From contig NZ_MVQB01000060.1 of the NCBI RefSeq assembly GCF_002067035.1, positions 167,499 to 208,580 on the forward strand: a DNA stretch of 41,082 nt, read 5' to 3'. This document shows, one piece after another, positions 4,694 through 39,093 of this stretch. How positions within the stretch are numbered: the stretch's first letter is position 1; every line of letters begins with the position of its first letter. A program made the position numbers and the translations under genes. Source of the stretch: Methanoregula sp. PtaB.Bin085. Its GTDB lineage: Archaea > Halobacteriota > Methanomicrobia > Methanomicrobiales > Methanospirillaceae. The notes beneath the pieces were generated by a model. That model ran no database searches. It was not told where the DNA came from and saw only the letters and a list, made by a program, of their open reading frames with translations.

Positions 4694-4703
4694 GGTGGAA
4701 AAG

Positions 4704-5564: not shown

Positions 5565-5566
5565 CT

Positions 5567-5866: not shown

Positions 5867-5869
5867 ACC

Positions 5870-6595: not shown

Positions 6596-6601
6596 TACAC
6601 A

Positions 6602-6805: not shown

Positions 6806-6810
6806 TCAAG

Positions 6811-7551: not shown

Positions 7552-7568
7552 TGGAGGTGTAAAAGAAC

Positions 7569-16421: not shown

Positions 16422-16433
16422 CCTTCCAGTGAC

Positions 16434-17867: not shown

Positions 17868-17895
17868 TGTTTCACCAAAAAATATCGGGGGCTGA

Positions 17896-18324: not shown

Positions 18325-18329
18325 CCGCA

Positions 18330-19408: not shown

Positions 19409-19933
19409 TTATGCCATCTCCTTCTTTATGGCAGCTGCCACCTGTTCGACATTTTTCACGATGTCCCCTGCATTCTTGTTGTATGCAGCGATATGCGCGC
19501 CCCTGACGCGCTCGTCCGACGGGAGGATCTCCTCGCCGTGCGGGATCTCAAGACCTGCCTCGACAGCTCCCTTGAGTGCTGCAAACACGCGTGCACCGGG
19601 GGTTGCCCGGTTGAGGCCGATGTCCAGGATTGCCGCATCCTGCCGGGCCTTCTTTGCTTTTACCGCAAAGAGCATTCCCGTGAGATATGCTGCCGGGGTA
19701 CTGGAGGTTGATCCCTTGAACCCGTATTTTTCGAGCTCGGCTGAATTTGCTGCCACGAGGGTACGGTCGCCGTCCATCTCAGCCGTGACGAGCTGCACGA
19801 TGATGTGCCGGTTGGTCTTGCGGACGACCATGCGCGGTACGTCTGCAACGACAAGCCTCGTCCGCTGGTAGTAATCGGTTTTGCCTTCCCTCCTTCTTCT
19901 GAAGGGGACAAAATACCGTGATCCTGTTGCCAT
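19409..19933 (-). CDS. rpl18: Ribosomal protein L18 (uL18)
   Basis: The 174-residue protein binds 5S rRNA on the large subunit. It starts with the archaeal N-terminus [24 protein letters not shown], contains the [20 protein letters not shown] segment near residue 109, and ends with a charged helix. It lies directly between rpl19e and rps5. Confidence 0.95.
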
Positions 19934-19934
19934 G

Positions 19935-20387
19935 TTACTTCATCCTCCCTGAGAGGATCTCCATCTGCGCCTTCATGTGCGCAACACTTCTGAACTGCCC
20001 GCCTGCCGCTTTCCGGTACAGGATACGGTACATGTGCCGGTCGATGGTGCCGGCCGCGCGCAGCTCAACGAGTACTTTTCGTATTGCACGAATCTTCTGG
20101 ACCCATGCGGTTTTACTCGGCTTCCGTGCGCCTGCTGCACCCTTGCGCTTTCCGGCACCCTTGCGGTGGCCGTAGGAACGCTGGGCGATGCGCGCCCGTG
20201 CCCGGCCGCGGCTGACGCCTTTCTTCTGGCGCGCCTTGATCGCACCTTCGGTAATGAGGGCCCGCAGGTCTTCCCGCGAGATCGCATTCTCGATATCCGA
20301 GAGACGGGCAGGGTCGAACCAGACGCGGTTGACACCGCATTTCAGTACGGATGCCACGATACGTCTCTGGCTGGCGATGTCACTCAT
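19935..20387 (-). CDS. rpl19e: Ribosomal protein L19e (eL19)
   Basis: The 150-residue, strongly basic protein is specific to archaea and eukaryotes. It begins [18 protein letters not shown] and has the long basic helix and the [25 protein letters not shown] block (about residues 59-83) that reaches into the 23S rRNA. Its start overlaps the end of rpl32e by 8 bases. Confidence 0.96.
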
Positions 20388-21087
20388 TCTTCTTCACCCC
20401 TTTCTTGGGGGCCTTTGCAGCGGCGGTCTTCTTTGCCGGGGCCTTCTTCTCGGCCTTGGGCTCTGCTTTCTCGGCCTTGGGCTTGGCGGCGGCCTTCTTT
20501 GCCGGGGCCTTCTTCTCGGCCTTGGGCTTGGCGGCGGCCTTCTTTGCCGGGGCCTTCTTTTCGGCCTTGGGCTCTGCTTTCTCGGCCTTGGGCTTGGCGG
20601 CGGCCTTCTTTGCCGGGGCCTTTGCTTTCTTTACCGTGGCCTTCTTCTCCGCTTTTTCTTCGCCCTCTTCCGTCTTCGGCTTTGCCTTTGCAGGTTTCTT
20701 TGCCTTTGTCTTCACAACTTTTGCATTAAGGACGCCAAGACCACTGGTAATTGCCTGGTCCTGGATCGCAACACGCTTCCGCATGCCCACCGTCGCACCG
20801 ATCCTCACTGCCTGTGTTTTGGGATCGAGTCCTTCGAGCTCCTTCAAGGAAGTTACAAGAACCTCGAAGTAGCCGCTCGGGTGCATACCACGTACGGCCA
20901 CGGGGCTGCCAAAGCCCGGCTTGGGGAGTGCTCCCTTTGCCTTCTTCTGCTCGCGCTGCTTGTTATGCTGTCCGCGAGGTTTTCTCCATGAATCGGAGAG
21001 CTGGCGTTTCTTGCCGTACCCGTCACGCTTGAAGCGCGCACCCTTGTCGGTACGGACTTGGATCAGACGCTTGATTTCTGTTGCCAT
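20380..21087 (-). CDS. rpl32e: Ribosomal protein L32e (eL32) with long repetitive Lys/Ala tail
   Basis: Residues 1 to about 125 are the normal L32e core (RDGYGKKRQLSDSWRKPRG, then GMHPSGYFEVLVTSL), a large-subunit protein of archaea and eukaryotes. The rest, about 110 residues, is an extra C-terminal tail of Lys, Ala, Pro and Glu, built from repeats with the unit APAKKAAAKPKAEK. The archaeal family is usually around 130 residues, so the tail almost doubles the protein. The tail lies at 20383-20712. The repeat is visible in the DNA (20419-20620), which suggests growth by slippage or unequal recombination. Confidence 0.94.
   Translation of the reverse strand: MATEIKRLIQVRTDKGARFKRDGYGKKRQLSDSWRKPRGQHNKQREQKKAKGALPKPGFGSPVAVRGMHPSGYFEVLVTSLKELEGLDPKTQAVRIGATVGMRKRVAIQDQAITSGLGVLNAKVVKTKAKKPAKAKPKTEEGEEKAEKKATVKKAKAPAKKAAAKPKAEKAEPKAEKKAPAKKAAAKPKAEKKAPAKKAAAKPKAEKAEPKAEKKAPAKKTAAAKAPKKGVKKNE
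20419..20620 (-). repeat. Tandem DNA repeat in the rpl32e tail
   Basis: Four tandem units begin at 20419, 20485, 20530 and 20596 with lengths 66, 45, 66 and about 25 bases. All start with the plus-strand pattern (A/G)GCGGCGG(T/C)CTTC. The 45-base unit is the 66-base unit lacking an internal 21-base segment. All lengths are multiples of 3 except the last partial unit, so the frame is kept. Confidence 0.92.
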
Positions 21088-21092
21088 TTCCT

Positions 21093-21617
21093 TCAGCCCC
21101 TCTGAACCATGTAGATACCATCCTGGAAGACGCGCGGGTCGCGGTCGCGGATGTGGGTTGCATGTTCGATGTTCGCTGCGGTTGTTCCAACAAGTTCGCG
21201 GTCAATACCGGTCAGGACGACCTCATCGCTGCCGACCTTTGCCGTGACACCCGCTTCGATCCGTGCATGCCGTGCCTTCTTTTCACCAAGGAAATTCGCA
21301 ATCTCAAGCTTGTTGCCCTGAAGCTTCAGCTGGATCGGGAAGTGGCTGTAGACAACTTTCATGCGGTATTCGTACCCCTCGGTTACTCCACGGAACATGT
21401 TCTTTGTATGTGCCTCGAGCGTACCGACCATCGCGGTGATCTCCTTGCGGCGGGATTCAGTTGCTATAACAACTTCTTTCCCGTCACAGGTTACGGTGAC
21501 CTGAGGGAACCGGATATTGCGGGAGAGTTGTCCCTTGGGTCCTGTCACGCGAAGATGCATGCCGTCAAGACTGACTTTCACGCCATCCGGAATAATGACT
21601 TTTCTTACTGCTGCCAT
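21093..21617 (-). CDS. rpl6: Ribosomal protein L6 (uL6)
   Basis: The 174-residue large-subunit protein has two copies of the L6 fold and sits near the factor-binding site. Recognisable parts are VTGPKGQLSRNIRF near residue 28, NMFRGVTEGYEYRMKVVYSHFP near 73 and the C-terminal ATHIRDRDPRVFQDGIY. It lies between rps8 and rpl32e, as in other archaeal spc operons. Confidence 0.96.
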   Translation of the reverse strand: MAAVRKVIIPDGVKVSLDGMHLRVTGPKGQLSRNIRFPQVTVTCDGKEVVIATESRRKEITAMVGTLEAHTKNMFRGVTEGYEYRMKVVYSHFPIQLKLQGNKLEIANFLGEKKARHARIEAGVTAKVGSDEVVLTGIDRELVGTTAANIEHATHIRDRDPRVFQDGIYMVQRG

Positions 21618-21629
21618 TCAAAGCACCCT

Positions 21630-22022
21630 CTAGTACACGTACCCGATCAGCTCTCCGCCGATGCCTTCTTTTCTCGCCTGTTCATGGGACATAACACCCT
21701 TTGAAGTCGAGAGCATCAGGAGACCGAAGTTTTTCCCGGGCAGGTACTGCTTCTCCCAGTATTCCATTTCATCCAGCTGTACAGAGAACCGCGGGCTGAT
21801 AGCACCGCAGCGGTTGATCCTGCCCGTCAGGTTGACCTTGAGCTGGCCACCCCTGCCGTCATCGATGAACTCGAAGCTGCCGATATAACCGGCGTCCTGC
21901 ATGATTCGGAGCATTGCGCCGAGAAGCTTGCTTGCGGGTTCGATAATGACGACGGCCTTGCCGGTATCCCCGGCGTTCTTTATGGCACACATGCCATCTG
22001 CAATGGTATTCTGTCGTGTCAT
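21630..22022 (-). CDS. rps8: Ribosomal protein S8 (uS8)
   Basis: The 130-residue protein binds the central domain of 16S rRNA. It shows the N-terminal [13 protein letters not shown] block and the C-terminal [19 protein letters not shown] signature. A GTG at 22031 is in frame, but GAGGAG overlaps it and is well placed for the ATG at 22022, which also gives the family length of 130. It follows the small rps14 gene. Confidence 0.96.
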
Positions 22023-22034
22023 TTCGCTCACTCC

Positions 22035-22190
22035 TCAGCTCATCTTCTTGAAACCCATCTTCTGGGCCCATTCGCGGAAGCACTGCCTGCAGAACATGAT
22101 GTGGTATCTGCGTACGAGCCCCTGCTTGCGCCCGCACATCTTGCATTCGTTCGCACCGCGACCGTAGATCTTCTTTCTTACTCCTGCCAT
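22035..22190 (-). CDS. rps14: Ribosomal protein S14 (uS14), zinc-binding type
   Basis: A 51-codon frame encodes the short archaeal S14, which binds 16S rRNA in the head of the small subunit. It starts [19 protein letters not shown] and carries a zinc ribbon with Cys16, Cys19, Cys34 and Cys37, then [14 protein letters not shown]. The ATG overlaps the rpl5 stop by one base (TGATG). The gene is short but its position between rpl5 and rps8 is canonical. Confidence 0.96.
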
Positions 22191-22687
22191 CAGTGCACCT
22201 CGACCTGGAACTTCTCTTTGAGGAATGCAATGGCATCAGTTTTGCTCACACGCTGCTTCTGGGGGAGCTTCTTCTGCGCCATCTTCCTGCGGGTAATCCG
22301 GATGCCTTTCCGTTCGAGGACGACATTGACGTCCATACCATAGATACCAATCTGCGGGTCGTAGGACATTCCGGGGAAATCCGTGTGCTCTTCGATACCG
22401 AAGGCAAAGTTTCCGCTTTTGTCGAACTGGCTCTCAAAGAGAGTCTTCTGGACGATGTTGAGAGCGGTTGCAATGAAGTCTGCAGCAGGTTTACCACGGA
22501 GAGTAACCTTGCAGCCGATAGGCATCCCTTTCCTGACGGAGAATGCCGGCTGGGTCTTTTTGGCAATGCTCCGAATCGGGGTCTGCCGGGTAATCGTCTT
22601 CATGATGTTCTCGGCTTTTACGAGCTTGTCGCCCGCTTCGCCAACGCCCATGTGGACGACGACCTTATCGATATAGATATCGCGCAT
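22190..22687 (-). CDS. rpl5: Ribosomal protein L5 (uL5)
   Basis: The 165-residue protein binds 5S rRNA in the central protuberance. It contains [19 protein letters not shown] near the N-terminus, the [22 protein letters not shown] block and the [15 protein letters not shown] block. A GTG at 22696 is in frame, but GAGTGA just before the ATG at 22687 and the family's start (MRDIYIDKV) favour 22687. The 5' end overlaps rps4e. Confidence 0.95.
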
Positions 22688-22692
22688 CGATG

Positions 22693-23418
22693 TCACTCTT
22701 CATGCCCCCATTTTGCAATGGCCGGGGCTTTTGTTCCGACCATGTAGATGTATGGCGCAACGGTATCGAAGGTCGTCCCTGTTACTTCGTCGGTAAGGAT
22801 GATCTTGTTGGGAACGCTGCCGGGGACCTTGACGATATCCTTGATCCGGGCTACCTTGCCGGAGTGTTTACCGCCGATGATCATCGCCATGTTGCCAACG
22901 GCAAACGGGAAGTGATCGACAATCTTGAACCGGCTCTCCGGTTCGAGCGACAGCACGATCGAATCCCCGGGTTTGTATTTGTTTTCAGCCAGGATATTGG
23001 AGCCGTCGCGAAGGTTCAGCTGGACTTTTCCCTTGCTGACGATAGTCTTGTTCTTTATCTTGCAGAGACGGGTTTTTGCCGCTTCGGAATCGATCGCGAC
23101 AGAGACGTGCCTTCCGTTCTTGTCACGGAGGATGCGGTAATACTTGTTAATCTTCGGGAGGGCGATGATATCGAAGATCCCGATGCCCATCTTGGGGTCC
23201 CGGCAGGGTTTCCCGTTGATGATGACATCGTTCTGGTGGAGGATCTGCTTGACCTCCTTGAGGTTCCGTGCCATGCCCATGTGGTCGCGGAGCCAGACCG
23301 TAATCGGCATGGCATTCGCGTTGTGCGGGCCGGCTGCGGTCTTCGTGATGAATTTCGTGACTTTCTTTGCGATATGCCACGAGTCAGGGGCGTTGAGTCT
23401 CTTTAAGTGGTCTCCCAT
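22693..23418 (-). CDS. rps4e: Ribosomal protein S4e (eS4)
   Basis: The 241-residue protein is found only in archaea and eukaryotes. It has an S4-type RNA-binding domain in the first half (KRLNAPDSW, then [22 protein letters not shown]), the central S4e domain and a C-terminal KOW-like segment with [19 protein letters not shown]. Its ATG overlaps the rpl24 stop by one base. Confidence 0.96.
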
Positions 23419-23783
23419 TATTCGGCCTCCGCTAATTTTGCCTCGCGGCGTTTGTCGGCAAGGTTCAGCTTGGTGATCCGGACATTGGATGCACTGACTG
23501 CACGGGGGACTTCAGTCCCGTCGGCTTTTGTTGAGAAGACACCGTGAACGACAATCTTAGCGTTCTTGGTATCGACAGCATCAACAAGTCCTTCTTCACC
23601 TGCGAAGTCACCGCGGGTTACCTTTACGGTGTCGCCCTTAACGACGCGCAGGGTCTTCTTTTTATACTGCTCGCTCAGTTCCGCTGACAGCGGGGCGTTG
23701 AGATATTTCGAGCTGACGTGTGAAGGGGCATTATACCGGGCCTTCCTCTGTTTTCTTGGCTGTGAGCTTTCCAGTCGTACCAT
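23418..23783 (-). CDS. rpl24: Ribosomal protein L24 (uL24)
   Basis: The 121-residue protein is an early assembly factor of the large subunit. It starts with the archaeal block SSQPRKQRKARYNAPSH and has a KOW motif at about residues 50-72 (VKGDTVKVTRGDFAGEEG). A charged C-terminal helix follows. It lies between rpl14 and rps4e. Confidence 0.96.
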   Translation of the reverse strand: MVRLESSQPRKQRKARYNAPSHVSSKYLNAPLSAELSEQYKKKTLRVVKGDTVKVTRGDFAGEEGLVDAVDTKNAKIVVHGVFSTKADGTEVPRAVSASNVRITKLNLADKRREAKLAEAE

Positions 23784-23793
23784 TCTTCACACC

Positions 23794-24192
23794 TCATACA
23801 ATGATCGTTGCCATGGACCCGAGCTTGGGGAACCGCTCTGCCACTTCACGGGCAACCGGTCCCTTGATCTCGGTCCCTTTCGGCTCATTCTTTTCATCGA
23901 CAACAACCACCGCGTTATCCTCGAAGGATACGCGCATCCCGCTTGGCCTGCGCATCTCTTTCTTGGCGCGGATGACCACCGCGCGTACGAGCTTCCGGCG
24001 CATGTCCGGTGTGCCCTTCTGGACGCTTGCCGTACAGAGGTCGCCGAGACCCAGTTTGGGCTGGCGGCGCCTGACGCCGTGATAGCCAAAGACCGAAATG
24101 ATCTGGACGGTCCTGGCCCCGGTATTATCGGCGCAGGCAAGCCGTGTTCCTGTGGCAAGTGATCTCGGGGTCTTGGACTGCTTCGCCTTCAT
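23794..24192 (-). CDS. rpl14: Ribosomal protein L14 (uL14)
   Basis: The 132-residue protein sits at the subunit interface of the large subunit. The five-stranded barrel is recognisable from [20 protein letters not shown] and [25 protein letters not shown]. The frame is open to 24246, but the family starts near [11 protein letters not shown], matching the ATG at 24192, which overlaps the end of rps17 by 4 bases. Confidence 0.95.
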
Positions 24193-24515
24193 GGCTTCTG
24201 CACCTCCACGACCACGAACGTCGTGCTCTTCGAAAGCGGCCGGCATTCGGCAATCTTCACCACGTCACCGGCCTTTGCCCCGATACAGGGAGGGTTGTGG
24301 GCATGGAGCTTGCTCGAGCGCTTCTCGTACCGCTTGTATTTCCGGACGTAATGCAGGTAATTCCGTGCAACCACGACCGTTCCCATCATTTTATCGCTCA
24401 CGACTTTACCGGTGATCACCTGGCCGCGCACCGGTAAAGTGCCGTGAAACGGACAGTTAACGTCCTTGCACTCCGATTGCGGAGCCGTGACGTTCAATCC
24501 AATGTTTTGTGCCAT
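24189..24515 (-). CDS. rps17: Ribosomal protein S17 (uS17)
   Basis: The 108-residue protein has the archaeal N-terminal extension with the [10 protein letters not shown] block followed by the OB-fold S17 core ([21 protein letters not shown]). The C-terminal [20 protein letters not shown] is the family signature. It binds 16S rRNA. Its start overlaps the rnp1 stop by one base. Confidence 0.96.
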
Positions 24516-24799
24516 TATGGTATCCTCTTCTTTTCATGCAGGTTGATCCTTTTTTCAGGAGCCAGAGCCAGTACGGATCCATCTATCTCCACAAGTTCCC
24601 TGCCGGGAAGCGAGACCCGGAACGTGTTGTGCATCTTCGCGATGCGCCTGATTCCGTTGGAGGTCTCGATGACCAGCAGATTCCTTGTTTCATCGATGAT
24701 GCGGCCGGACAGTCCCTTCTGATCCTGGTTTGCAGCTCCCGATACCAGAACATCCAGACCAATCAGCTCGTGGCGCAGGATGTTCCGGGAAGAGATCAT
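24515..24799 (-). CDS. rnp1: Ribonuclease P protein component 1 (Rpp29/POP4 homologue)
   Basis: The 94-residue protein is the archaeal homologue of eukaryotic Rpp29, a protein partner of RNase P RNA in 5' processing of tRNA precursors. It has the beginning [14 protein letters not shown], the [18 protein letters not shown] segment and a beta-barrel end ([16 protein letters not shown]). Location between rpl29 and rps17 is standard for euryarchaea; the SUI1-like gene found there in some archaea is absent. Confidence 0.95.
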
Positions 24800-24999
24800 G
24801 CAGTTCTCCTGCGGTTCTGCTCGGTCATCATCCGGGCAATGGTCCTCCGGAGTTCCCCGATATGGCCGGGGTTCTCGGTGGCGCCGCCGGCACTGACCTT
24901 GCCATAGTGCTGGACAAGTTCCATCCGGAGTTTTCCCATCTGTTCCTGCAGTTCAACATCCGAGAGCTGCCTGACATCCTTTGCCCTGAATATTGCCAT
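24796..24999 (-). CDS. rpl29: Ribosomal protein L29 (uL29)
   Basis: The 67-residue protein is two helices: FRAKDVRQLSDVELQEQMGKLRMELVQ... is the first, and the RRTIARMMTEQNRR signature the second. It sits near the peptide exit tunnel. It overlaps rnp1 by 4 bases and rps3 by one base. Confidence 0.95.
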   Translation of the reverse strand: MAIFRAKDVRQLSDVELQEQMGKLRMELVQHYGKVSAGGATENPGHIGELRRTIARMMTEQNRRRTA

Positions 25000-25694
25000 T
25001 ACTGTTCGCCTCCGAGATCTTCGTCGGGAAGCGCTGGCTCCTCGGCATCGTCCTCATTTACCGGGGTGACGGTTGCCTTTGCAGCCGGGCGTTTCTTTTC
25101 CTGTTCGATGACTGAGAAGTGGTCGGGCAGCTTGGCACCTGCGGGGACCAGCTTGACCTGAACACCGATGACGCCGAGTTTCTTGATTGCAACGGCATAG
25201 CCTTTTTCAACGATCGTGTTGCTCGGTTCACCGCAATGCTTGATGTAGCCTTCCGTGAACTTCTGGGTCCTGGCACGGGCACCGGTGAGCTTGCCAGCGA
25301 TAACGACTTCGCAGCCGAGTGCACCGGAGTCCATGACCCGGCGCAGGATGCTGGTGCCAGCCTTCCGGAAGTACCAGCCGCGCTCGAGTGCGTTTGCAAG
25401 CCGCTCTGCCATGATCTGGGCGTTGAAGCTCGGGTTGCTGACCTGCTGGACTTCAATCTGCGGGGATTCCACGCCATAATTCTGGGCAAGGTCCTGCGTC
25501 AGCTGGTGGACCAGTTTGCCACCTTTCCCGATGACGATACCGGGCTTCTCGGCAAAGATGGTAACCTGGGTGCCGAGCGGCGTCCGGGCGATGTCCATAC
25601 CGCCATAGCCTGCGCGCTTCAGTTCCTTGGACAGGTACTTCTCGACACGCGCTTTCCGGACGCCTTCGTTGATGAATTTCCTCTCGACTGCCAT
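24999..25694 (-). CDS. rps3: Ribosomal protein S3 (uS3)
   Basis: The 231-residue protein lies at the mRNA entry site of the small subunit. It has an N-terminal KH domain with the GxxG loop at residues 52-59 (GIVIGKGG) and the C-terminal S3 domain (ALGCEVVIAGKLTGARARTQKF). The last 30 residues form an acidic tail rich in Glu and Asp, a common addition in archaea. Confidence 0.96.
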   Translation of the reverse strand: MAVERKFINEGVRKARVEKYLSKELKRAGYGGMDIARTPLGTQVTIFAEKPGIVIGKGGKLVHQLTQDLAQNYGVESPQIEVQQVSNPSFNAQIMAERLANALERGWYFRKAGTSILRRVMDSGALGCEVVIAGKLTGARARTQKFTEGYIKHCGEPSNTIVEKGYAVAIKKLGVIGVQVKLVPAGAKLPDHFSVIEQEKKRPAAKATVTPVNEDDAEEPALPDEDLGGEQ

Positions 25695-25695
25695 G

Positions 25696-26160
25696 TTATG
25701 CCACCTCGCGGACGATGATCTCGATGTTCACGCTCTCCCGCACCTTGGGGCTTGCACGGCCCATCGCACGAGGGAAGAATGCCTTCTGTGCCCTTCCGCG
25801 GTTTGCCGAGGCGTGGATGATTTCGAGGTTCTCGGCATCGAGGCCAAGATATTCTGCGTTCTTCTTGACGGACTCGAGGATACGGATGTATTCCTTCGAG
25901 GCCTTGACCGGGTAACGCCCTGCGTCCCAGTTGCCGGGGAGGCCGCGCTTGTGGGCGACATTCCGGTTGAAGTACCGGAACGGGACCGCCTTCCTGAGTT
26001 TGACCACGTCGTTGAGGTACGCGATTGCATCATTCACGCGCTTGTGCCTGATGAACCCGGCGATCTCGATCGAGTGCTTGGGGGACATGTTCAGCTCATT
26101 GGCCTTTGCCTTTGCAACGGTGTCACCCTTGACATTTTGTGAATATTCAGTTCGTGCCAT
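25696..26160 (-). CDS. rpl22: Ribosomal protein L22 (uL22)
   Basis: The 154-residue protein lines the peptide exit tunnel of the large subunit. It has the archaeal start region with ALxMSPKHSIEIAGFIR-like sequence, the long tunnel beta-hairpin with HKRGLPGNWDAGRYPVKAS, and the C-terminal signature FPRAMGRASPKVRESVNIEI. It sits between rps19 and rps3. Confidence 0.95.
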   Translation of the reverse strand: MARTEYSQNVKGDTVAKAKANELNMSPKHSIEIAGFIRHKRVNDAIAYLNDVVKLRKAVPFRYFNRNVAHKRGLPGNWDAGRYPVKASKEYIRILESVKKNAEYLGLDAENLEIIHASANRGRAQKAFFPRAMGRASPKVRESVNIEIIVREVA

Positions 26161-26166
26161 AGTTCA

Positions 26167-26586
26167 TCACTTCAGCGGGACGTACTTGCTGCCTCTGGTT
26201 GCACCAATACCGGCGCTTCCGTGAGTGACCCTCTTCCTTGTCAGGGCAAACTCCCCGATATACCGGAAGACCGACTCCGGCTGGAACTCGACTTTCACGA
26301 ACTCCTTGCCATTATACACCTCGATAGTCTTTCCGATCATGACCGGCATGACGATCATTTCCCGGAGGTGGGTCCGGATCTTCTCGTCACCGTCGCGGAT
26401 CTTTGCCAGTAATGTCTCTTCACCGCGGGAGAAACCGCGGGTAACCTTGCGGCGGGGACGGGCCGGCATCAGGGGGAGGAGTTCGGAGATCCCCATCGCC
26501 TTGAGCTCGTCGATCTTGTAGCCGCGATAGGTGAACTCCTCACGCCGCCGTGGCATTCTCTTCTGAGTCTTCTTTGGTGCTGCCAT
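26167..26586 (-). CDS. rps19: Ribosomal protein S19 (uS19)
   Basis: The 139-residue protein sits in the head of the small subunit close to the A site. It begins with the archaeal MAAPKKTQKRMPRRREEFTYRG, continues through LLPLMPARPRRKVTRGFSRG and ends with the signature KEFVKVEFQPESVFRYIGEFALTRKRV, cut here to its key parts. It follows rpl2. Confidence 0.95.
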   Translation of the reverse strand: MAAPKKTQKRMPRRREEFTYRGYKIDELKAMGISELLPLMPARPRRKVTRGFSRGEETLLAKIRDGDEKIRTHLREMIVMPVMIGKTIEVYNGKEFVKVEFQPESVFRYIGEFALTRKRVTHGSAGIGATRGSKYVPLK

Positions 26587-26593
26587 TTACCCA

Positions 26594-27310
26594 TCACTTC
26601 CTGCTCTTACCTGTCCTGCGTGCTGCAACGTGTCCGACGGTCCTTCCCGGGGATGTGCCGCGTGCGATCGTCTTCGGGCGTCCTGCGTGCTGGTGCCCTC
26701 CGCCACCGAACGGGTGGTCGATAACGTTCATCGCCACGCCGCGGACGCGGGGCCAGTTGGCCGCAGTATTGTGCATCTTGTGGTACTTGTTCCCGGCCTT
26801 CACGAACGGTTTCTCGACCCGTCCGCCACCGGCGACGATACCGATGGTTGCCCGGCAGCGTGCGTTGAACCACTTTGTCTTGCCGCTGGGCATCCGTATG
26901 CCGACACGGTCTTCAGTTTTATCAACGACAACAGCCTGGACACCAGTCGAGCGGACAAACTTACCGCCGTCGTTCGGGCGTGCCTCGATGTTGCAGATGA
27001 ATGTACCGGTCGGAATGTTCGCGAGGGTCAGGGTGTTACCGTTCTTTACCTCTCCGGCAGCACCCCAGAACACTTCGTCTCCAATCCCGAGACCCTCGGT
27101 GACCAGCATGTAAACCTTCTCGCCGCTGTCAAGCTTGACAAGGGCGATGGGTGCATTGCGTGCCGGGTCGTGTTCGATATCGATGACGGTTCCGGTGACC
27201 TTCTTCGTGTCGTCACCGATATGTTTCAGTTCAGCCTTGTACCGGTGGGATGGTGCACGGTATGTCGGACCCCCCTTCCCGCGGGCCTGTGTTGTAATTC
27301 GATGTCCCAT
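26594..27310 (-). CDS. rpl2: Ribosomal protein L2 (uL2)
   Basis: The 238-residue protein is a core large-subunit protein near the peptidyl transferase centre. It has the N-terminal GHRITTQARGKGGPTYRAPSH region, the OB-fold and SH3-like domains and the C-terminal signature VRGVAMNVIDHPFGGGGHQ, with the functionally important His in that loop. A GTG at 27319 is in frame, but GGTGGGG stands before the ATG at 27310 and gives the usual family N-terminus. Confidence 0.96.
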   Translation of the reverse strand: MGHRITTQARGKGGPTYRAPSHRYKAELKHIGDDTKKVTGTVIDIEHDPARNAPIALVKLDSGEKVYMLVTEGLGIGDEVFWGAAGEVKNGNTLTLANIPTGTFICNIEARPNDGGKFVRSTGVQAVVVDKTEDRVGIRMPSGKTKWFNARCRATIGIVAGGGRVEKPFVKAGNKYHKMHNTAANWPRVRGVAMNVIDHPFGGGGHQHAGRPKTIARGTSPGRTVGHVAARRTGKSRK

Positions 27311-27319
27311 GTTCCCCAC

Positions 27320-27568
27320 CTACATTATACCGAGCCGGCTGAGGATCTCCTCGGCGGCTTTCTCGTTCTCAAAGCTCACGATGGCTTTCTTCTCGCCATG
27401 CATATTCATCAGTGTCCGGACGCCCTTGACTTTCTGGCCGAAGGCCTTCTCGACCTCGCGCTTGATGTCGTCCTTTGTTGCTTCGTGGGTTACAAGGAAC
27501 TGGAGCTTGCTCTGGTTCTCGAGAAGCACCATCGCTTTTTCTGTAACGAACGGGAATTTCAGGGTCAT
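27320..27568 (-). CDS. rpl23: Ribosomal protein L23 (uL23)
   Basis: The 82-residue protein binds at the peptide tunnel exit, where SRP and the translocon dock. The N-terminal FPFVTEKAMVLLENQSKLQF and the C-terminal MNMHGEKKAIVSFENEK blocks are characteristic. It is directly between rpl4 and rpl2. Confidence 0.95.
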   Translation of the reverse strand: MTLKFPFVTEKAMVLLENQSKLQFLVTHEATKDDIKREVEKAFGQKVKGVRTLMNMHGEKKAIVSFENEKAAEEILSRLGIM

Positions 27569-28315
27569 TTACCTTCCCCCCAGACGCGTGAGCGCGCTCT
27601 CGGTCCAGACCGTCAGGCGGCCCGCGAGCATCCCCGGAGCGAGGTGCTCGACATTGAGCTGATCGACGGTGACTGCATCGACACCAGAGAGGTTGCGTGC
27701 AGCTGAAAGAGGCTTCTCCGCGGTGACAATCAGGAGGCTCTTTCGCTGTTTCATCCGGCGGCCGCGCAGTTTGCCTTTGCCGGCACGGACCTTCCGGCTG
27801 TCCTTTGCCTTGACAACGTCGTTGTATACACCCGCTGAGGTGAGCGCGGTGATGATCTCCGCGGTCTTGCCAATACTCTCGAACTTATCCTCGAGGACAA
27901 CCGGGACTTCGCCTTCGAAGATGTGGCCGCGTCCACGGACAAGCTCCGGGTTGACGCTGGCTGCAACGGCCGAGCGGAACGCCTTCTGCTTCTCCTTCTG
28001 GTTGATTTCTTTTATCAGGACCTTGGCAACCTTCGGGGGATGCGCCTCACGTCCTCCCTTTGCCTGCGGGACCTTGGCGGCACGGGAGCCATTCTTGATA
28101 CGGGGCACGTGGGACGACCCGCGGCCGCTTCCCCACCCGACTGCAGAAGACCGGATGCCCGCGAACGGGTCGGTCCCGTGCGGCTGCCGGCGGGTGCTCT
28201 GCAGTGCCATAACTGCCTTCTTGATCAGATCGGGCCGGTATGCTTCGGAGAAGATCTCCGGGAGCTCGATGTTCTTTGATACCGCGCCATCCAGTGATTT
28301 TACCTGTGCTTTCAT
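27569..28315 (-). CDS. rpl4: Ribosomal protein L4 (uL4)
   Basis: The 248-residue protein is the archaeal/eukaryotic L4. Its long tunnel loop is recognisable from AVGWGSGRGSSHVPRI (around residue 59) and GGREAHPPKV; the C-terminal part has GKLRGRRMKQRKSLLIV and the AARNLSGVDAV block. In bacteria L4 represses its own operon; whether that applies here is unknown, but the structured leader upstream of rpl3 makes the question relevant. Confidence 0.96.
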   Translation of the reverse strand: MKAQVKSLDGAVSKNIELPEIFSEAYRPDLIKKAVMALQSTRRQPHGTDPFAGIRSSAVGWGSGRGSSHVPRIKNGSRAAKVPQAKGGREAHPPKVAKVLIKEINQKEKQKAFRSAVAASVNPELVRGRGHIFEGEVPVVLEDKFESIGKTAEIITALTSAGVYNDVVKAKDSRKVRAGKGKLRGRRMKQRKSLLIVTAEKPLSAARNLSGVDAVTVDQLNVEHLAPGMLAGRLTVWTESALTRLGGR

Positions 28316-28322
28316 TGTCTGA

Positions 28323-29336
28323 TCATCCCTGCTTGCTCTGGACGCTCACGAACTGGATTGCCGGCATCCTGACGACATGTTCTCCCTGGCGCATCGCCGG
28401 GCGGATACGGATCAGCCGCTTGACCGGGCCGGGGATAGAGCCTTTGACCAGTACGTACGGGTTCCTGAGGACGCCGTAGTGGAGGAAGCCTCCTGCCGGC
28501 GTGATCTCGCTTGCATTCTCAGAGAACTTCAGGATACGCTTGTTGAACTCTGTCCTCTGCTGGAATCCCATCTGGCCGATCTGGGGAACCTGCCACCGGA
28601 TGTGGTGCGGGTTCCAGGGTCCGAGAGTCCCGATGTGGCGTTCCTTGCCGCCAACGGAGTGCTTGCGCTTGCGCAGGGCAATACCCCAGCGCTTGACGGC
28701 GCCCTGCGTCCCCTTACCGGTAGTAATGGCGGTGATATCCGCATAGGCACCGGCCTGGACAACATTGTTCAGTGATACATCCTTGCCGAGGAGCCCGAGA
28801 GCGAATTCGACCTGCTTCTTGATGTCCGCTCCTCCAACCTTGATCTCCATCAGATCGGGTACTTTCTTGGGAACACCGGAGAGTGCGGCCGGCTGCGTGT
28901 AGGTAACAGCGTAGATCTCGGCAATAGTGCCGGCGGCAACCGCATCGGTCAGTTTCTTCCTTGACGCTTCCCCGTCGTAATCCTTGGGGAGCGTGATGCG
29001 GCGGCCGAGAACAGCGTCAAGCTGGTCTGCCCAGACGTCGGTAAATGCATGTTTGCCGTACGTATCTTTCGCGTACGCACGAATGGCTGCGACCTTCATC
29101 TGAGGGACTTCAATCACGGTAACCGGGACCATGATCTCCTTGCCTTCGGTGGGACTGTTCTTGTGGTCATCCACCATGATGACATGCGTCATACCTACCT
29201 TGTATCCGGCAAATCCCTGCAGGACTGGTGTGCCCTCGTAGACTGGCCACGATTGGTACTTCGGAATCGGGCTCTTTGCACGCTTTCTCGGGCTGAATGC
29301 AAGAGAGCCGCGGCGTGGTCTGTTGATTTTTGGCAT
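28323..29336 (-). CDS. rpl3: Ribosomal protein L3 (uL3)
   Basis: The 337-residue protein is the archaeal/eukaryotic long L3, which organises the peptidyl transferase centre. It starts [20 protein letters not shown] and contains the [20 protein letters not shown] block near residue 213, followed by [15 protein letters not shown], the family signature around the W-finger. It is the first gene of the S10-spc supercluster. About 540 bases of non-coding, hairpin-rich DNA lie upstream. Confidence 0.97.
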
Positions 29337-30538: not shown

Positions 30539-30584
30539 AACTCCGGGTCATATTAACGTGCTAAAACTTTTTAGGTGATATCAG

Positions 30585-31424
30585 ATGGTAGTTAAAGTAG
30601 GCGTTGCAAAACTCGGCAACATCGCAAGCGGTGTCATGGCCGAGCTGCTCCTCGACGAGAGAGCAGACCGTGAAGACATGCAGACATTCATGGCAACCAG
30701 CGGTACCAAGCTCGAGCCGGCAGATGTCGACCGTGTCGTTTCCAACCTGAAGGCATACAAACCCGACTTCTGTATCGTCGTTTCCCCGAACGGTGTCCTC
30801 CCGGGCCCGACCAGTGCCCGCGAAGAGCTTGCAAAGGCCGGCATCCCGGTCGTCATCATCACCGATGATGTAACCACCAAGAAGGAGTGGGAAGGCGTCA
30901 AGGCCAGCAAGTTCGGATACATCATCATGAAGGCAGACTCCATGATCGGTGCACGCCGCGAGTTTCTCGACCCCGTCGAGATGGCGGACTACAACGGCAA
31001 CCTCGTCAAGGTCCTTGCACTCACCGGTGCATTCCGCAAGCTCGAAGTCGCCCTCGACAAGGTCATCGACCAGGTCAAGGCCGGCAAGAAGGGCGATGCA
31101 ATTGAACTCCCGAAGATCATCATGACCACCGACAAGGCTGTCGAAGGCGAGTTCACCAACCCCTACGCACTTGCAAAGGCACGTGCCGCCCACGAGATCG
31201 CGATGGCAGTTGCAGGCCAGAACGTCAAGGGCTGCTTTATGACCAAGGAATGGGAGAAGTACATCCCGATCGTTGCCAGCGCTCACGAGATGATGAGGTC
31301 CGCTGCAGTGCTCTGCGATGAAGCCCGCGAGCTCGAGAAGGCAGGCGACAGCATTATGCGCCAGGCCCACAAGAAGGACGGAACGCTCGTCGCCAAGAAG
31401 AAGCTCGTAGCAAAATTCGACTGA
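30585..31424 (+). CDS. mtd: F420-dependent methylenetetrahydromethanopterin dehydrogenase
   Basis: Mtd reversibly reduces methenyl-H4MPT to methylene-H4MPT with reduced F420 in the hydrogenotrophic pathway. The 279-residue protein has the family start [16 protein letters not shown], the [14 protein letters not shown] block (residues about 67-80) and [21 protein letters not shown] near residue 110. A strong TATA and AGGTGAT precede it. It is a monocistronic unit: the next gene is convergent. The heavy use of preferred codons suggests high expression. Confidence 0.97.
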
Positions 31425-31433
31425 GTTCCTTCC

Positions 31434-32363
31434 CTATTTATCTCTCTTTTTATAGAATTTTCCGAGGTCTTCCGGAAGGGTCATTATTACCGGCTCAAGG
31501 TGAAGTCGTTCCATGAATGCGGAGTCACTTGTAGATGCGGGATTGGGATTAATACGCGAAATCATGGAACAGAACGCCCGGTATCCGTGATCGTTGCCGG
31601 CCCTGTCAAAAAAGACCGACATATTGAACGCATAGGTTCCCAGTTTCCGGTAGAGGGAGATGATCTCGAGTATGCCCCTGGCAAGCAGATCCGCATAATT
31701 CTCCATCTCCCCGAGTGTTGAGATGGGCAGGATCCCTCTCACTTCGCGCTCACCCAGAGGAACTGCATTGGCGGCCCAGAGAATTTCATCACCAAACAGG
31801 TACCGTTCAGACTGGCGTTCAATCTCCCTCAGGTCTTCCCAGTAAATCCGGCCACATTTTTTCCGGTATTGTTCACTTGATCCGATGTATATTTCGGCAA
31901 TTCTTGAGGGTTGATTATCGGATAATCCCTGCATGTGCGGATGGATGATGCTTGCTCCCGATGACGGGAGGAAATTCCAGTTGATACTGGCATATCCCTC
32001 TGCCCTGCGAAGAGCTTCGGTCTGCGCGAGGAGTGCATCCACAACCTGCTGTCGGCTGAAATGAATAACAGAATGTTCCCGTGTTATCACGGTAACAACA
32101 TGATTTTCACTGAAGGGGAACATGTTGGGGAATGTGACGCTTTCACCCCGCACAATCCGTTGACCGTCGGGAAACGTCGGGGTTACTTTCAGTATGGAAT
32201 CCGGGCAGAAAGGACATCCGTCACTGGTTGAGGAAGAGTTCTGTGACTGATCAATCTGCCGTTTCATCCGGTCCGGGCTGATCCTGCATCTGAACCCGGT
32301 AAGATTCTCCGAGCGAAACTGCAGAGACCCCCTGCTGGTAATAACTTCCCGTACCGAGAACAT
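31434..32363 (-). CDS. GalT-like nucleotidyltransferase of the HIT superfamily
   Basis: The 309-residue protein resembles galactose-1-phosphate uridylyltransferase. It has a zinc-site-like CPFC at residues 50-53, the NMFPFSENHVVTVITREH block (80-97) found in GalT proteins, and the catalytic motif HPHMQ at 141-145, whose central His would form the nucleotidyl-enzyme intermediate. The second half is weakly conserved and the true sugar or nucleotide substrate is uncertain. GGTGAAGGT precedes the ATG. It lies between two methanogenesis genes, convergent with mtd, but nothing ties it to that pathway. Confidence 0.75.
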   Translation of the reverse strand: MFSVREVITSRGSLQFRSENLTGFRCRISPDRMKRQIDQSQNSSSTSDGCPFCPDSILKVTPTFPDGQRIVRGESVTFPNMFPFSENHVVTVITREHSVIHFSRQQVVDALLAQTEALRRAEGYASINWNFLPSSGASIIHPHMQGLSDNQPSRIAEIYIGSSEQYRKKCGRIYWEDLREIERQSERYLFGDEILWAANAVPLGEREVRGILPISTLGEMENYADLLARGILEIISLYRKLGTYAFNMSVFFDRAGNDHGYRAFCSMISRINPNPASTSDSAFMERLHLEPVIMTLPEDLGKFYKKRDK

Positions 32364-32519: not shown

Positions 32520-33506
32520 TTATACGACGTATTTGCCGAGAAGGCGGATGGAGTTGGTCATGTCCGGACCAAGCGGTGAGCCGAAGATGATCTGGGTTAC
32601 ACCGGCCTTGGTGAGGGCTTCGCATTTCTGCTTGACCATTTCAGGAGTACCTGCAATGGTGAATGCATCGATTTCCTTGTCTCCGACAAGGTCTCCGACG
32701 CTCTTGAAGTCGAACTTTGCGAGGGCTGCCTTGATCTTGGCAACATTGTTCAGGTCGAGGCCGTGGCGGGTCAGGAGGTCGGGCGGGGAGCCGGCTGCGA
32801 TGAATGCGGCAACGATCTTTGCTGCATTGCGGGCCTTCTTCTCGCTCTGATCGATTGACATTGCGGTGTATGCGCCGACATCAAAGTTCTTCTTTCCTAC
32901 CTTGTCGCAGGCTGCCTTGATGATCGGGATTGCAATGGCAAAGTCCTTGGGGTTTGATGCGTTGATGAGTGCACCGTCGCCCACTCTTCCGGCAAGCTCG
33001 AGAACCTTGGGGCCCTGAGCACCGACATAGATCGGAACTCCCTTCTTGCCCGGGAGAGTAACACCGGTGAGCTTTGCACCATCGTAATCGAAGAACTTCA
33101 TGCCCGACTTGTTCACCTGTTCGCCGGCACAGAGCTTGCGGATCTGTGTGATGGCTTCCTCGAGGCGGGCAACCGGCTTTTCAGCCTGGATAGCAAGCTT
33201 CGGGAGGGTTGACAGGTCACCGGGGCCGATACCGAGGACTGCGCGCCCGTCGGAGATCTCGTTCAGCGTGCAGAAGAATGATGCCATTGCCGCTGGGGTG
33301 TCGGTGAAGGAGTTCATGATACCCGGACCCATCTTCAGGGTCGTGGTCTCCTTTGCGATTGCGGCAAGGGTGGGGTAGCAGTGGCGGTTGTTGTAGTGGT
33401 TGGTGATCCATGCAAAATCAATGTCTTTGGATTCTGCAAGTTTACAGAAGTTGACAACTTGCTTCACATTGACATTTCCTGGTACGAATTCAATTCCATA
33501 TGTCAA
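32520..33506 (-). CDS. mer: F420-dependent methylenetetrahydromethanopterin reductase
   Basis: Mer reduces methylene-H4MPT to methyl-H4MPT with reduced F420, giving the substrate of Mtr. The 328-residue protein is a luciferase-like TIM barrel. It starts MTYGIEFVPGN and carries WITNHYNNRHCYPTLAAIA (residues about 33-51) and GIGPGDLSTLPKL (around 96-108), both family landmarks. GAGGTGAAC stands before the ATG and a TATA at 33542-33556. It is a separate unit and not in an operon with mtd or mtr. Confidence 0.97.
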   Translation of the reverse strand: MTYGIEFVPGNVNVKQVVNFCKLAESKDIDFAWITNHYNNRHCYPTLAAIAKETTTLKMGPGIMNSFTDTPAAMASFFCTLNEISDGRAVLGIGPGDLSTLPKLAIQAEKPVARLEEAITQIRKLCAGEQVNKSGMKFFDYDGAKLTGVTLPGKKGVPIYVGAQGPKVLELAGRVGDGALINASNPKDFAIAIPIIKAACDKVGKKNFDVGAYTAMSIDQSEKKARNAAKIVAAFIAAGSPPDLLTRHGLDLNNVAKIKAALAKFDFKSVGDLVGDKEIDAFTIAGTPEMVKQKCEALTKAGVTQIIFGSPLGPDMTNSIRLLGKYVV

Positions 33507-33824: not shown

Positions 33825-36077
33825 ATGCGGATAATTGCTCTTGGACTCGGGGGGGCAGGTTGCAGGATCGTCAACAGCCTCTATGCGATAGACCGGCGCA
33901 GCAGCAGGGTGGCATGTGTCCAGGCTCTGGCTATCGATGTTGACGAAGAAACGATACGACAGCTGACTGCCCTCCCGGATAACGGGCGGATGTGTTTTTC
34001 CGCAGACACCGGTATCGCTGATCTGACCGGGTCAGAAATACCGACAGCCCCCATCGATATCAATGAGATCGTTTCCCGGGTCCAGAACCTTGAATCCGGT
34101 GAAAACGATGCAATTTTTCTCTGCTGCGGTCTTGGCGGAAGCATGGTGGATGTCGCCCCCCATATTATCGCAGGCCTGAGATCGTCTGTTGTTGAACCGA
34201 TATTCGGCCTTGTCACCCTTCCCTGCCTTGCTGAAGGAGAACGTATCTCGGGAAAAGCAGCGGATGATATCGATATGCTTTCTTCTCTGCTTGATGGTAT
34301 CATCGTGTTCGATAATGAGACCTGGCATAAAAAAATCAAGACGCAGAGAGCAAACCTCCCGAAAAAGGAGATGGGATTTGCGGAAAAGATCGGTCTCATT
34401 AAAAGCGAAAAACCCCTTCCTCCGGCACAGGCAACGTACCGGAACCTGAATGAGGCCATCGTACGACGGATCGGTCTCATACTTCGCGCGGGCGAATTCA
34501 GAGCTGACGGGGGTATCGATCTTGCAGAGGTCGTCCTGGATTCCGGCGAAGTACTCAACACGATGAGAGGCATGGGATTTATCACCATCGGGTATGCAGT
34601 CGAGAAACTACCCCACGACCCCCTTCGGTTCCTTTCGTGGCTGAAACCAGCAGGACTGAGTGATGAAGAACAGAAAAAAAGGGCTTCCCGTATTGTTGAG
34701 CTTGCAAAACAGGCGATTTATCATGAGATCTCCACACCCTGTGACCTGACCAGTGCCCATAAAGCTCTGGTGCTTATTGCCGGTCCCTCGCACGAACTCT
34801 CCATGAAAGGATTCATGACTGTCAGGAAATGGATTGACAGGAGCATTGCCGGGCTTGAGACACGGTCAGGAGATTATCCTGTCATGAACACAAAAAACGT
34901 GGCGATTATCGTCATGTTGTCCGGGCTCGAAAATATCCCCCGCATTACTGAGATCAAAGAGATCCGGTCCCAATCAAAACCCGGGAAACATGCAGGTCAG
35001 GCAGAAACCCCGGATGAAGGAATGGAACGTGTTCACCCGGTTATCAGGGATGATATGATTTCACTTCCAGCCCGTATGCCCAGATCCGATGACAGTGATC
35101 GCAGAACCCCTCCCGTCCATGAATCTCTTCCTGAGGAGTACGAAAACGAAACCCCGGCAAGGAAGCCGGAACAAATCCTGCAAAAAGAAGTCGCAGTTGA
35201 ACCGGCAATACCATTACCGCCGGTTCAACCAGAAATTCCCCGATCCGTTCCAACGGCAAGGAAGATGCCGGCACCCGAACCGCCAGCTGAACCAGAACCC
35301 CTGAGGACACCTGAAGTATTTGTACCTCCCTCCCGGCGTCGGGTCATTGTTGCTCACACAGAGAATGAACACGCTCATCACCATCCTTCGCACCCATTGC
35401 CAGCTCACGGAGGGCTTCGCCCTGGAAAGAGCAGTCCATCTGAACGCCATTTAACGGAAATATCCCCCCTGCATTCCGATCAGGACAGCCCGCCTGCCAA
35501 AGAAACAGAACGGCAGAGAATTGAACGGGAGTTACGCCGGCAAAGATCGATGGCGATAGGTGTTGCTTCCCAGAAAAACACCCCTCAGGCCGGGAAAACC
35601 CCCGAAAAAAACATGGAGAGAAAGATCATCCAGAAAAGAACGCCTCATACAAAAACAGATGCAGAGGAGAAGATGCCTCACAAAGTGATCGAACCTGGAG
35701 AGATTGAGATCTCTTCTGACAAACGGACGGTCATCGTCGGAAAACGAAAATCTGCTCTCCTGCCACAGAATGCGCAGGACACATCGTCTCTCCAGGAGGA
35801 GAACATACCTCAGCATCCGGATGAGTCCGATGACGATAACAGAAGCGTAGAAATCAGGGACAGGATATTCCGGGCAAGGGACGAGATATTTACCGGGAAA
35901 GGAGTGAGAAAAACCACCCTCCCGCCGGCTCGGGATTCTACACTCCTCCATACCGAGCTGAAATCAAAGAAAAAAACCGTGGACAGAGAAGATGACGTTC
36001 ATGATACTGTCCTTCCGGAGACAGAGGATCGGGACACTCAAATCGGAAAAAATCGAATCAGGAAAGATAAATCATGA
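33825..36077 (+). CDS. Divergent FtsZ/tubulin-superfamily protein with long disordered tail
   Basis: Residues 1 to about 385 follow the FtsZ fold: T1 loop GLGGAGCRIVN (6-16), T4-like CGLGGSMVDVAPHIIAG (101-117), T5-like TLPCLAEGER (131-140), T6-like FDNETW (162-167) and the T7 acidic pair Asp232/Glu235 in GGIDLAEV. In canonical FtsZ the T4 motif is GGGTGTG; here it is GLGGSMVDV, so nucleotide binding may be changed, though the acidic T7 pair needed for hydrolysis is kept. Residues about 386-750 are a low-complexity tail rich in Pro, Glu, Lys and Arg, predicted disordered. Noncanonical FtsZ-like families in archaea and bacteria have been proposed to remodel membranes. The start is supported by GACTGATG only weakly. 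Confidence 0.78.
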   Translation: MRIIALGLGGAGCRIVNSLYAIDRRSSRVACVQALAIDVDEETIRQLTALPDNGRMCFSADTGIADLTGSEIPTAPIDINEIVSRVQNLESGENDAIFLCCGLGGSMVDVAPHIIAGLRSSVVEPIFGLVTLPCLAEGERISGKAADDIDMLSSLLDGIIVFDNETWHKKIKTQRANLPKKEMGFAEKIGLIKSEKPLPPAQATYRNLNEAIVRRIGLILRAGEFRADGGIDLAEVVLDSGEVLNTMRGMGFITIGYAVEKLPHDPLRFLSWLKPAGLSDEEQKKRASRIVELAKQAIYHEISTPCDLTSAHKALVLIAGPSHELSMKGFMTVRKWIDRSIAGLETRSGDYPVMNTKNVAIIVMLSGLENIPRITEIKEIRSQSKPGKHAGQAETPDEGMERVHPVIRDDMISLPARMPRSDDSDRRTPPVHESLPEEYENETPARKPEQILQKEVAVEPAIPLPPVQPEIPRSVPTARKMPAPEPPAEPEPLRTPEVFVPPSRRRVIVAHTENEHAHHHPSHPLPAHGGLRPGKSSPSERHLTEISPLHSDQDSPPAKETERQRIERELRRQRSMAIGVASQKNTPQAGKTPEKNMERKIIQKRTPHTKTDAEEKMPHKVIEPGEIEISSDKRTVIVGKRKSALLPQNAQDTSSLQEENIPQHPDESDDDNRSVEIRDRIFRARDEIFTGKGVRKTTLPPARDSTLLHTELKSKKKTVDREDDVHDTVLPETEDRDTQIGKNRIRKDKS

Positions 36078-37658: not shown

Positions 37659-39053
37659 TCAGATTTCATTCCTTCTCGTGACATGGTGGCCGGGTTTTCT
37701 GCCGAACTTCCTGAATACCACAAACAGGGCAAGAACCACGAGAATGACACCCCCGATAATCCCGAGAAAACCCAGGTCCATGGATTTATCGAGACGGAGA
37801 GTAACGGAATCGGTAGTGTTGCCTGCGACAACCTCTCTCTGGAGAGAAGCCGGCAGGTAACCTTCCCGGGTTGCTGAAATATTATAAACCCTGTTGAACC
37901 TGACGCTGGTAATGATCCGGCCGTGATCATCGGTCTGCCCGATAACGGTTCCATCAACGGAGATCACTGCTTGCGGAATCTCTTTTGCCTCTTTATCACT
38001 GACAGAGATGGTGAGGGCGGAACTTTCCGCAGTCAGCGTGAAAGAATAATCCTCGCTTTTATTCGAAACAGTGATGGTCCGGTTTGAAGGATTGTACCCG
38101 GTCTTTCTTATTTCAACAGGATAGGATCCAAAAACCAGATCGGGAAACGTGTGACGCCCGTACTCGTTCGTTGTTCCGGACAGGTTTCCGCTGATATAGA
38201 TCTCCGCACCTTTCACCGGATTATTGTTTTCATCATAAACATACACAAAAGCACCTATCGGGGCTTTGGCGATCTCTATGATATAAATCGCATCACCCTG
38301 ACTGATGATTCTCGATTCGGTAACGGATTCGTACCCATCCTTTTTTACCTCAATCGTATATGTCCTGCCCCGGGCAACCGGAGTACTCAGGATTCCACGT
38401 TCATCGGTCTTTCCTGCAGGGATTGAATTAAGCCGGATTTCGGCACCCGGGACCGGTGCCTTGGATGCTTTGTCCTTTACCACGAATGAATATTTATTGC
38501 CTGAAAGAAGCCAGAACTGAATTGCCTTGTTATCCATCCCGACATCCGCTGTGCCGCTCCGGGGTTCGTAATTGGGTGCGTTAATATCCACAGAATACAG
38601 CATATTGGCATTCACAATGAAAGTAACCACGCCGGCTGCATCACTCTGCTTGCTCTGCGTAGAGTTCATCGCGGATATGTTAACAACAGCACCGGGGACA
38701 GGGCTGAGCGTATCGGAGTCATACAGATTTATTGTCAGGGTGACAGCCTTCCGGCTCATGTTAACAATAAGCGTTTCCTGGTTTTTCGGGACAATGTTTT
38801 CCCAATCGGTATACCCGACCATAGAGATGCGGATACGCTGGTCATTCTGGCCGTTGTGGGAGAGGAAATACTGGCCGTTATTGTTGGTTCGTGCGAAGTC
38901 CTGACCATTGACGTAGACAACCGCATTCGGAATTGAGGTATTATCGATGCTGTCCCGCACGGTGATTTGCAGATCTATCGCAGCCTGGACTGTACTGCAG
39001 AGGAGGAACAGGCATAATAAAAGGAGGAGAAAAGGAGAGCGATATCGATACAT
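37659..39053 (-). CDS. Secreted surface protein with repeated carboxypeptidase-regulatory-like domains and C-terminal anchor
   Basis: The 464-residue protein has a signal peptide (Leu-rich residues 6-20, then STVQAA), about five beta-sandwich repeats of 75-80 residues and a C-terminal membrane helix (about residues 428-448) followed by a basic tail. Repeats carry a Pro-x-x-x-A-x-V/I pattern, a GxT-D/N-x-x-G turn and a GY segment (AVVYVNGQDFARTNNNGQY, and VSVDGTVIGQTDDHGR shortened), like PEGA and carboxypeptidase-regulatory domains of surface proteins. ATG 39053 is preferred over 39077 since AGGTGG lies upstream, though spacing is long. Function is not known; adhesion or surface structure is a guess. 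Confidence 0.78.
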   Translation of the reverse strand: MYRYRSPFLLLLLCLFLLCSTVQAAIDLQITVRDSIDNTSIPNAVVYVNGQDFARTNNNGQYFLSHNGQNDQRIRISMVGYTDWENIVPKNQETLIVNMSRKAVTLTINLYDSDTLSPVPGAVVNISAMNSTQSKQSDAAGVVTFIVNANMLYSVDINAPNYEPRSGTADVGMDNKAIQFWLLSGNKYSFVVKDKASKAPVPGAEIRLNSIPAGKTDERGILSTPVARGRTYTIEVKKDGYESVTESRIISQGDAIYIIEIAKAPIGAFVYVYDENNNPVKGAEIYISGNLSGTTNEYGRHTFPDLVFGSYPVEIRKTGYNPSNRTITVSNKSEDYSFTLTAESSALTISVSDKEAKEIPQAVISVDGTVIGQTDDHGRIITSVRFNRVYNISATREGYLPASLQREVVAGNTTDSVTLRLDKSMDLGFLGIIGGVILVVLALFVVFRKFGRKPGHHVTRRNEI

Positions 39054-39093
39054 GATAAAATATCGCCACCTGCTCATATATCAGGACATCGGT

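Follow-up and report, generated by a model that had tools for sequence, protein, structure and literature searches.

What becomes of a tubulin-superfamily protein that has lost the half of its nucleotide pocket holding the phosphates and has kept its T7 loop? This question is raised by an open reading frame at positions 33825 to 36077 (forward strand) of the window, the 41,082-nucleotide stretch of DNA analyzed here, which derives from a Methanomicrobiales genome of 2.9 Mb in 63 contigs. The frame starts with ATG and encodes a protein of 750 amino acids followed by a stop codon. A preliminary description had presented it as an FtsZ-like protein with an altered T4 motif and a disordered tail. 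Prokaryotic tubulin relatives are mostly viewed as self-assembling GTPases.

Domain matches, phylogeny and predicted fold placed the protein on the CetZ side of the superfamily and not with FtsZ. In Pfam profile searches, the N-terminal domain matched Tubulin/FtsZ (PF00091) above the cutoff over residues 2 to 170, and CetZ_C (PF21011) was found with 149 bits against a cutoff of 21.6. FtsZ proper was rejected, as TIGR00065 gave 39.2 bits, in the N-domain only, against an equivalog cutoff of 295.2. The best solved relatives by sequence were CetZ1 and CetZ2 of Haloferax. In the phylogeny, which had been proposed as a check and in which FtsZ was represented by two rows only, with tubulin and TubZ left out, all the CetZ-type rows separated from FtsZ with a support of 100/100; the ortholog family formed a single clade (95/94) beside the canonical CetZ branch and apart from it. 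The AlphaFold2 model of the core (pLDDT, 78.5; pTM, 0.81) showed the same affinity, its closest solved folds being CetZ1 (4B46; Z score, 36.6) and CetZ2 (4B45; 36.5), followed by the Methanosaeta CetZ (3ZID; 33.2) and, after the CetZs, by TubZ (31.2). Structure prediction thus returned the tubulin/FtsZ fold that had been read from the sequence. The FtsZ-like label, however, was not the best one, and the C-terminal domain that had been matched to FtsZ turned out to be CetZ_C. The intact T4 signature GGGTGSG is replaced by GGSMVDV in the 750-aa protein and is lost in all the orthologs examined; for this reason, the protein was classified as a divergent CetZ paralog and not as a canonical CetZ.

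All features of the gene are given on the forward strand. The N-terminal nucleotide-binding-type (Rossmann) domain, delimited by PF00091 and the model, comprises residues 1 to 178 (33825 to 34358). The alignment and the model also revealed a family-specific insert between T6 and H7 (34326 to 34424), variable in sequence and of ∼25 to 33 amino acids, in which model confidence was low at residues 181 to 196. Helix H7 (34437 to 34484) carries the base-side residue N209, conserved in 99% of the orthologs. Within the family, conservation is highest in the CetZ_C domain (residues 202 to 380; 34428 to 34964). Conservation in the divergent clade was 0.58 for the N-domain versus 0.70 for the C-domain, the reverse of canonical CetZ (0.66 versus 0.57, respectively).

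The nucleotide pocket was compared in 116 orthologs and 49 canonical CetZs aligned on CetZ1. Which of these positions contact the phosphates, the ribose and base, or the GTP of the neighboring subunit is established knowledge from FtsZ, tubulin and CetZ structures. As judged from this alignment, the loss in the divergent clade is selective and confined to the phosphate side. The T1 loop, GLGGAGCR (33843 to 33866; canonical GFGQAGGK), retains most of its glycines. The T2 segment AIDVD (33930 to 33944) shows replacement of N38 by D in 99% of the orthologs and of A40 by D in 89%, and at the T3 site (33996 to 34040) the canonical phosphate loop KGHGVGTDN is absent, with low pLDDT at residues 62 to 73. 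The T4 loop reads GLGGSMVDVAP (34128 to 34160; canonical GLGGGTGSGGAP), with the T lost, one G deleted and a D gained. Among the orthologs, GGGTGSGG has become GG[S/T]MxD, T111 being replaced by M, V or L, G112 deleted and G114 replaced by D in 78% of the cases. The altered T4 noted in the preliminary description is thus no chance or sequencing oddity, since it is fixed across the 116 orthologs; the alterations of T2 and T3 go beyond that description.

The rest of the pocket has been retained. T5 (LPCLAEG; 34218 to 34238) keeps the ribose-side residue E137 in 99% of the orthologs, and N164 of T6 (FDNETW; 34308 to 34325) is invariant. In CetZ1 numbering, the base and ribose side is represented by E142 (99%), N169 (100%) and N187 (99%), so that some nucleotide could still be bound. 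The T7 loop, EVVLDSGEVLNTM (34527 to 34565), reads EVVLDSGEVLNT in the 750-aa protein, and its acidic pair is kept as had been claimed: D239 is present in 100% of the orthologs and E242, aligned to CetZ1 E218, in 99%. The equivalents of CetZ1 D215 (100%) and E218 (99%), on the catalytic face turned to the neighboring subunit, are therefore both retained.

At least one CetZ_C match was found in 229 of the 232 genomes of the class searched with Pfam. There were usually two per genome, a canonical CetZ of ∼390 to 410 amino acids (∼245 bits) and a weaker one. With a profile built from 36 orthologs, the divergent form was detected in each of the 106 Methanomicrobiales genomes with a completeness of 90% or more that were sampled, and was absent from 284 other genomes of the phylum. 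The matches in the latter, of canonical or FtsZ type, were far weaker and fell mainly in the C-domain (best, 1e-49). The source genome contains two FtsZs, one canonical CetZ of 399 amino acids and one divergent CetZ, and a canonical CetZ accompanied the divergent one in the genomes searched.

The neighborhood of the gene is maintained throughout the order, mostly at one mer/nrpR site: upstream lie mer and an unknown gene, downstream nrpR and a dCTP-deaminase-like gene, and each of the four is on the opposite strand. No conserved operon partner was found at the loci examined across the order. Since the gene stands alone, with its neighbors on the opposite strand, the context provides no tie to cetZ in this order. 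The divergent cetZ has been inherited vertically and seems to be monocistronic. The dN/dS values of the core (0.02 to 0.13) denote strong purifying selection; these values, the synteny and the orthologs in every sampled genome of the class of at least 90% completeness ruled out a pseudogene or a sequencing error.

In the window, mer lies at 32520 to 33506. The gene at 31434 to 32363, which adjoins mer in most of the Methanomicrobiales loci examined, and that at 30561 to 31370 gave no Pfam or NCBIfam match at an E value of 0.01. The window also contains the mtr operon (2940 to 8606), in which mtrE, mtrD, mtrC, mtrA and mtrH were identified, a ribosomal protein operon with secY (15846 to 29336), and a gene at 37659 to 39077 whose product, with four carboxypeptidase-regulatory-like repeats and an archaeal Fn3-like domain, is probably a surface protein.

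After residue ∼385 the protein continues as a tail of 365 residues (386 to 750; 34980 to 36074), with 12% Pro and 35% charged residues. The disorder ascribed to it earlier was corroborated by the charge-hydropathy analysis and by the full-length AlphaFold2 model, in which pLDDT was ∼30 except for a short helix in the QRIERELRRQR region (residues 562 to 578; 35508 to 35558) and a short strand in the RTVIVGK region (residues 635 to 639; 35727 to 35741). Among long-tailed orthologs, the tail ranges from ∼100 to 780 residues; the longest ortholog found (L134, in genome G152) has 1,141 amino acids and a tail of ∼780. Loss of the tail was seen in 15 sequences, most of which come from other genera within the same family; orthologs of 376 to 446 amino acids were counted as losses, some of which may be frameshifts in draft assemblies. 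Since tail-less orthologs exist, the core role does not require the tail in every case. Two short motifs recur in the 96 long tails analyzed. D[DE]MI, located here at 35049 to 35060, is present in 70 of them, and the D[DE]MI/D[DE]M[IL] motif occurred 71 times versus 0.85 expected by shuffling. The repeat [PA][KR][DE]xx[FLI]x[GA], of which ARDEIFTG (35874 to 35897) is a copy, occurred 87 times versus 2.5.

Most long tails end in a tryptophan-containing peptide. Trp was found in the last five residues of 85 of 98 long tails and makes up 0.14% of the residues elsewhere in the tail. The motif [ILVMFA][DETSNG][FW][ILVM], which was defined after inspection of the sequences, occurred in the last ten residues of 71 of the 98 (0.0007 expected). 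By the same criterion, it was present in 26 of 28 FtsZ1/FtsZ2 proteins of the order, in none of 49 canonical CetZs and in none of the 15 tail-less orthologs. The FtsZ termini read IDFL, LEWV or LDWV and those of the divergent CetZs ISWI, ITWI or IDWI, most of the latter carrying T or S where FtsZ has D. At the corresponding site (36060 to 36077), where most orthologs have ISWI or ITWIR, the window protein ends in RIRKDKS, and the terminal Trp is missing from it and from 12 other long-tailed sequences. The close relative L007 keeps the peptide (ending in DLSWI), and L006 has lost it too. Archaeal FtsZ C termini that contain a GID motif are ligands of the membrane anchor SepF (PMC8178401), and SepF is present in the source genome, so SepF is possibly a partner of the peptide. 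Given the post hoc definition of the motif and its absence from the window protein and 12 others, SepF binding is a lead and not a finding.

Compared with canonical CetZ (CetZ1 and CetZ2 of Haloferax volcanii; 4B46 and 4B45), the divergent form shares the two-domain fold, CetZ_C, the T5, T6 and T7 residues and the D215/E218 equivalents, but it lacks the T2, T3 and T4 phosphate loops and carries the T6-H7 insert. In most orthologs, a tail of 100 to 780 residues stands where canonical CetZ has a short C terminus ending in PLF. The main text of a previous survey (Brown and Duggin 2023, PMC9856176) describes "Non-Halobacteria-like" CetZs from Methanomicrobiales, Archaeoglobales and Methanosarcinales, reports that every complete genome of Methanomicrobiales has two CetZs, of which one is deep-branching, and suggests that the two may be functional pairs. 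The divergent clade is probably already labelled in that tree as the deep-branching group, and the main text of PMC9856176 appears to make no mention of T4/T3 loss or of a long tail. Pocket loss does not extend to the entire "Non-Halobacteria-like" group, as its Methanosarcinales-like members L234 and L235 keep GGTGSS in T4.

The short second CetZs that we call Archaeoglobi type from the CetZ content of their genomes (L233, L241 to L244, and L250) likewise have a degenerate T4 (SLESDFG) and no T3, a loss that goes further than in the divergent clade. In contrast to the divergent form, they measure ∼300 to 340 amino acids, have no tail and carry Asp as the second T7 acidic residue (DTSD). A joint clade of both groups was neither supported nor rejected (p-AU, 0.37). 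Outside the class, genome G375 carries a short T4-degenerate CetZ gene 147 bp upstream of a canonical cetZ on the same strand (L245:8987-11305). This candidate two-CetZ operon is the only direct hint from gene context at a joint function of a T4-degenerate and a canonical CetZ.

Loss of nucleotide motifs is not new in kind within the superfamily. Key motifs are missing from some archaeal FtsZ paralogs (Makarova and Koonin 2010, PMC2875224), and the FtsZ of Nitrosopumilus maritimus, which lacks GGGTGTG and the T7 loop, formed no polymers in yeast (PMC3684127); it resembles the divergent CetZ in being an archaeal protein without GGGTGTG, but T7 is missing there and invariant here. FtsZl-1 and FtsZl-2 (PMC2875224) are likewise large members of the tubulin superfamily that are extended at the C terminus, although their additional regions are coiled-coil or globular, CetZ_C is absent, and the T4 motif GGGTG(S/T)G is kept. 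Membership of our protein in these families was discarded because its T4 is GLGGSMVDV.

We tentatively favor a role for the divergent CetZ as a nucleotide-impaired subunit that may cap or anchor canonical CetZ filaments, because the phosphate loops have been lost whereas the T7 and C-domain face is kept and best conserved. An order-wide, vertically inherited CetZ paralog would thereby have become a partner subunit, presumably unable to self-polymerize through an ordinary GTP cycle. With its T7 face it would dock onto canonical CetZ, at the GTP face of the latter, where it might act as an end cap, a hydrolysis trigger or an anchor subunit. In comparison, α-tubulin supplies the catalytic residue for the GTP of β-tubulin. 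The long tail would be a flexible tether whose short motifs bind partners, as would, in most species, the FtsZ-like C-terminal peptide, possibly with SepF among its ligands.

Rather unlikely, in our opinion, is a scaffold that makes no filaments, its tubulin-fold head binding a partner other than CetZ and its tail doing the work, as a hub for partners in division, the envelope or regulation. Such a function would suit an isolated gene with no synteny partner, the short motifs conserved in the tail and the FtsZ-like peptide, but it offers no obvious reason for the invariance of D239/E242 outside a contact between T7 and nucleotide, and tail-less orthologs persist, most of them with a recognizable T7 motif.

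The filaments with unusual nucleotide dependence envisaged in the preliminary description are possible, but less likely than a cosubunit, cap or anchor, given that a protein devoid of its phosphate contacts still has the T7 face, which completes the GTPase site of a neighbor. In its full form, which we also deem unlikely, the protein would form filaments on its own with a nontriphosphate ligand or no nucleotide, and the tail would be a scaffold for shape or membrane remodeling. The complete two-domain fold, the nearly invariant base and ribose residues, which might bind a nucleoside or another guanine nucleotide, and the conserved motifs of the tail are in line with it. Against it, T7 would have to pack on the T2/T3/T4 face, which belongs to the half with the lower conservation, contrary to canonical CetZ, and the acidic residues gained would be expected to repel phosphates. 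The associated idea of a membrane or shape protein is compatible with our data and receives some weight from the FtsZ-like peptide of most orthologs.

That peptide, which in most orthologs resembles the termini of FtsZ1/FtsZ2 of the order and not those of canonical CetZ, might instead denote an accessory subunit of the division ring that joins FtsZ filaments and SepF, and not CetZ. We find this improbable, since the T7 and C-domain sequences are CetZ type and docking on the GTP face of FtsZ is less likely than on that of CetZ. Finally, a decaying duplicate without function, which the degenerate GTP motifs and the loss of the tail in some sublineages might suggest, is scarcely credible in view of its presence in all 106 sampled genomes, its conserved synteny and, above all, the strong purifying selection on its core.

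In the collection of papers searched, we found no described nucleotide-impaired CetZ and no paper on a CetZ1 E218A mutant. What seems to be undescribed is that, across a whole order, half of the pocket has selectively disappeared and T7 has stayed, in combination with the tail. If the partner-subunit reading is true, these archaea would have a division of labor between subunits comparable in logic to that of α- and β-tubulin, which bears on why every Methanomicrobiales genome has two CetZs. An extended version, to which we give only speculative standing, would have a phosphate-blind, T7-competent, order-wide subunit capping or triggering CetZ at one end and tethered through an FtsZ-mimicking peptide to the SepF division anchor, thus linking the shape and division cytoskeletons. 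The finding suggests a possible connecting route between CetZ and the FtsZ/SepF machinery.
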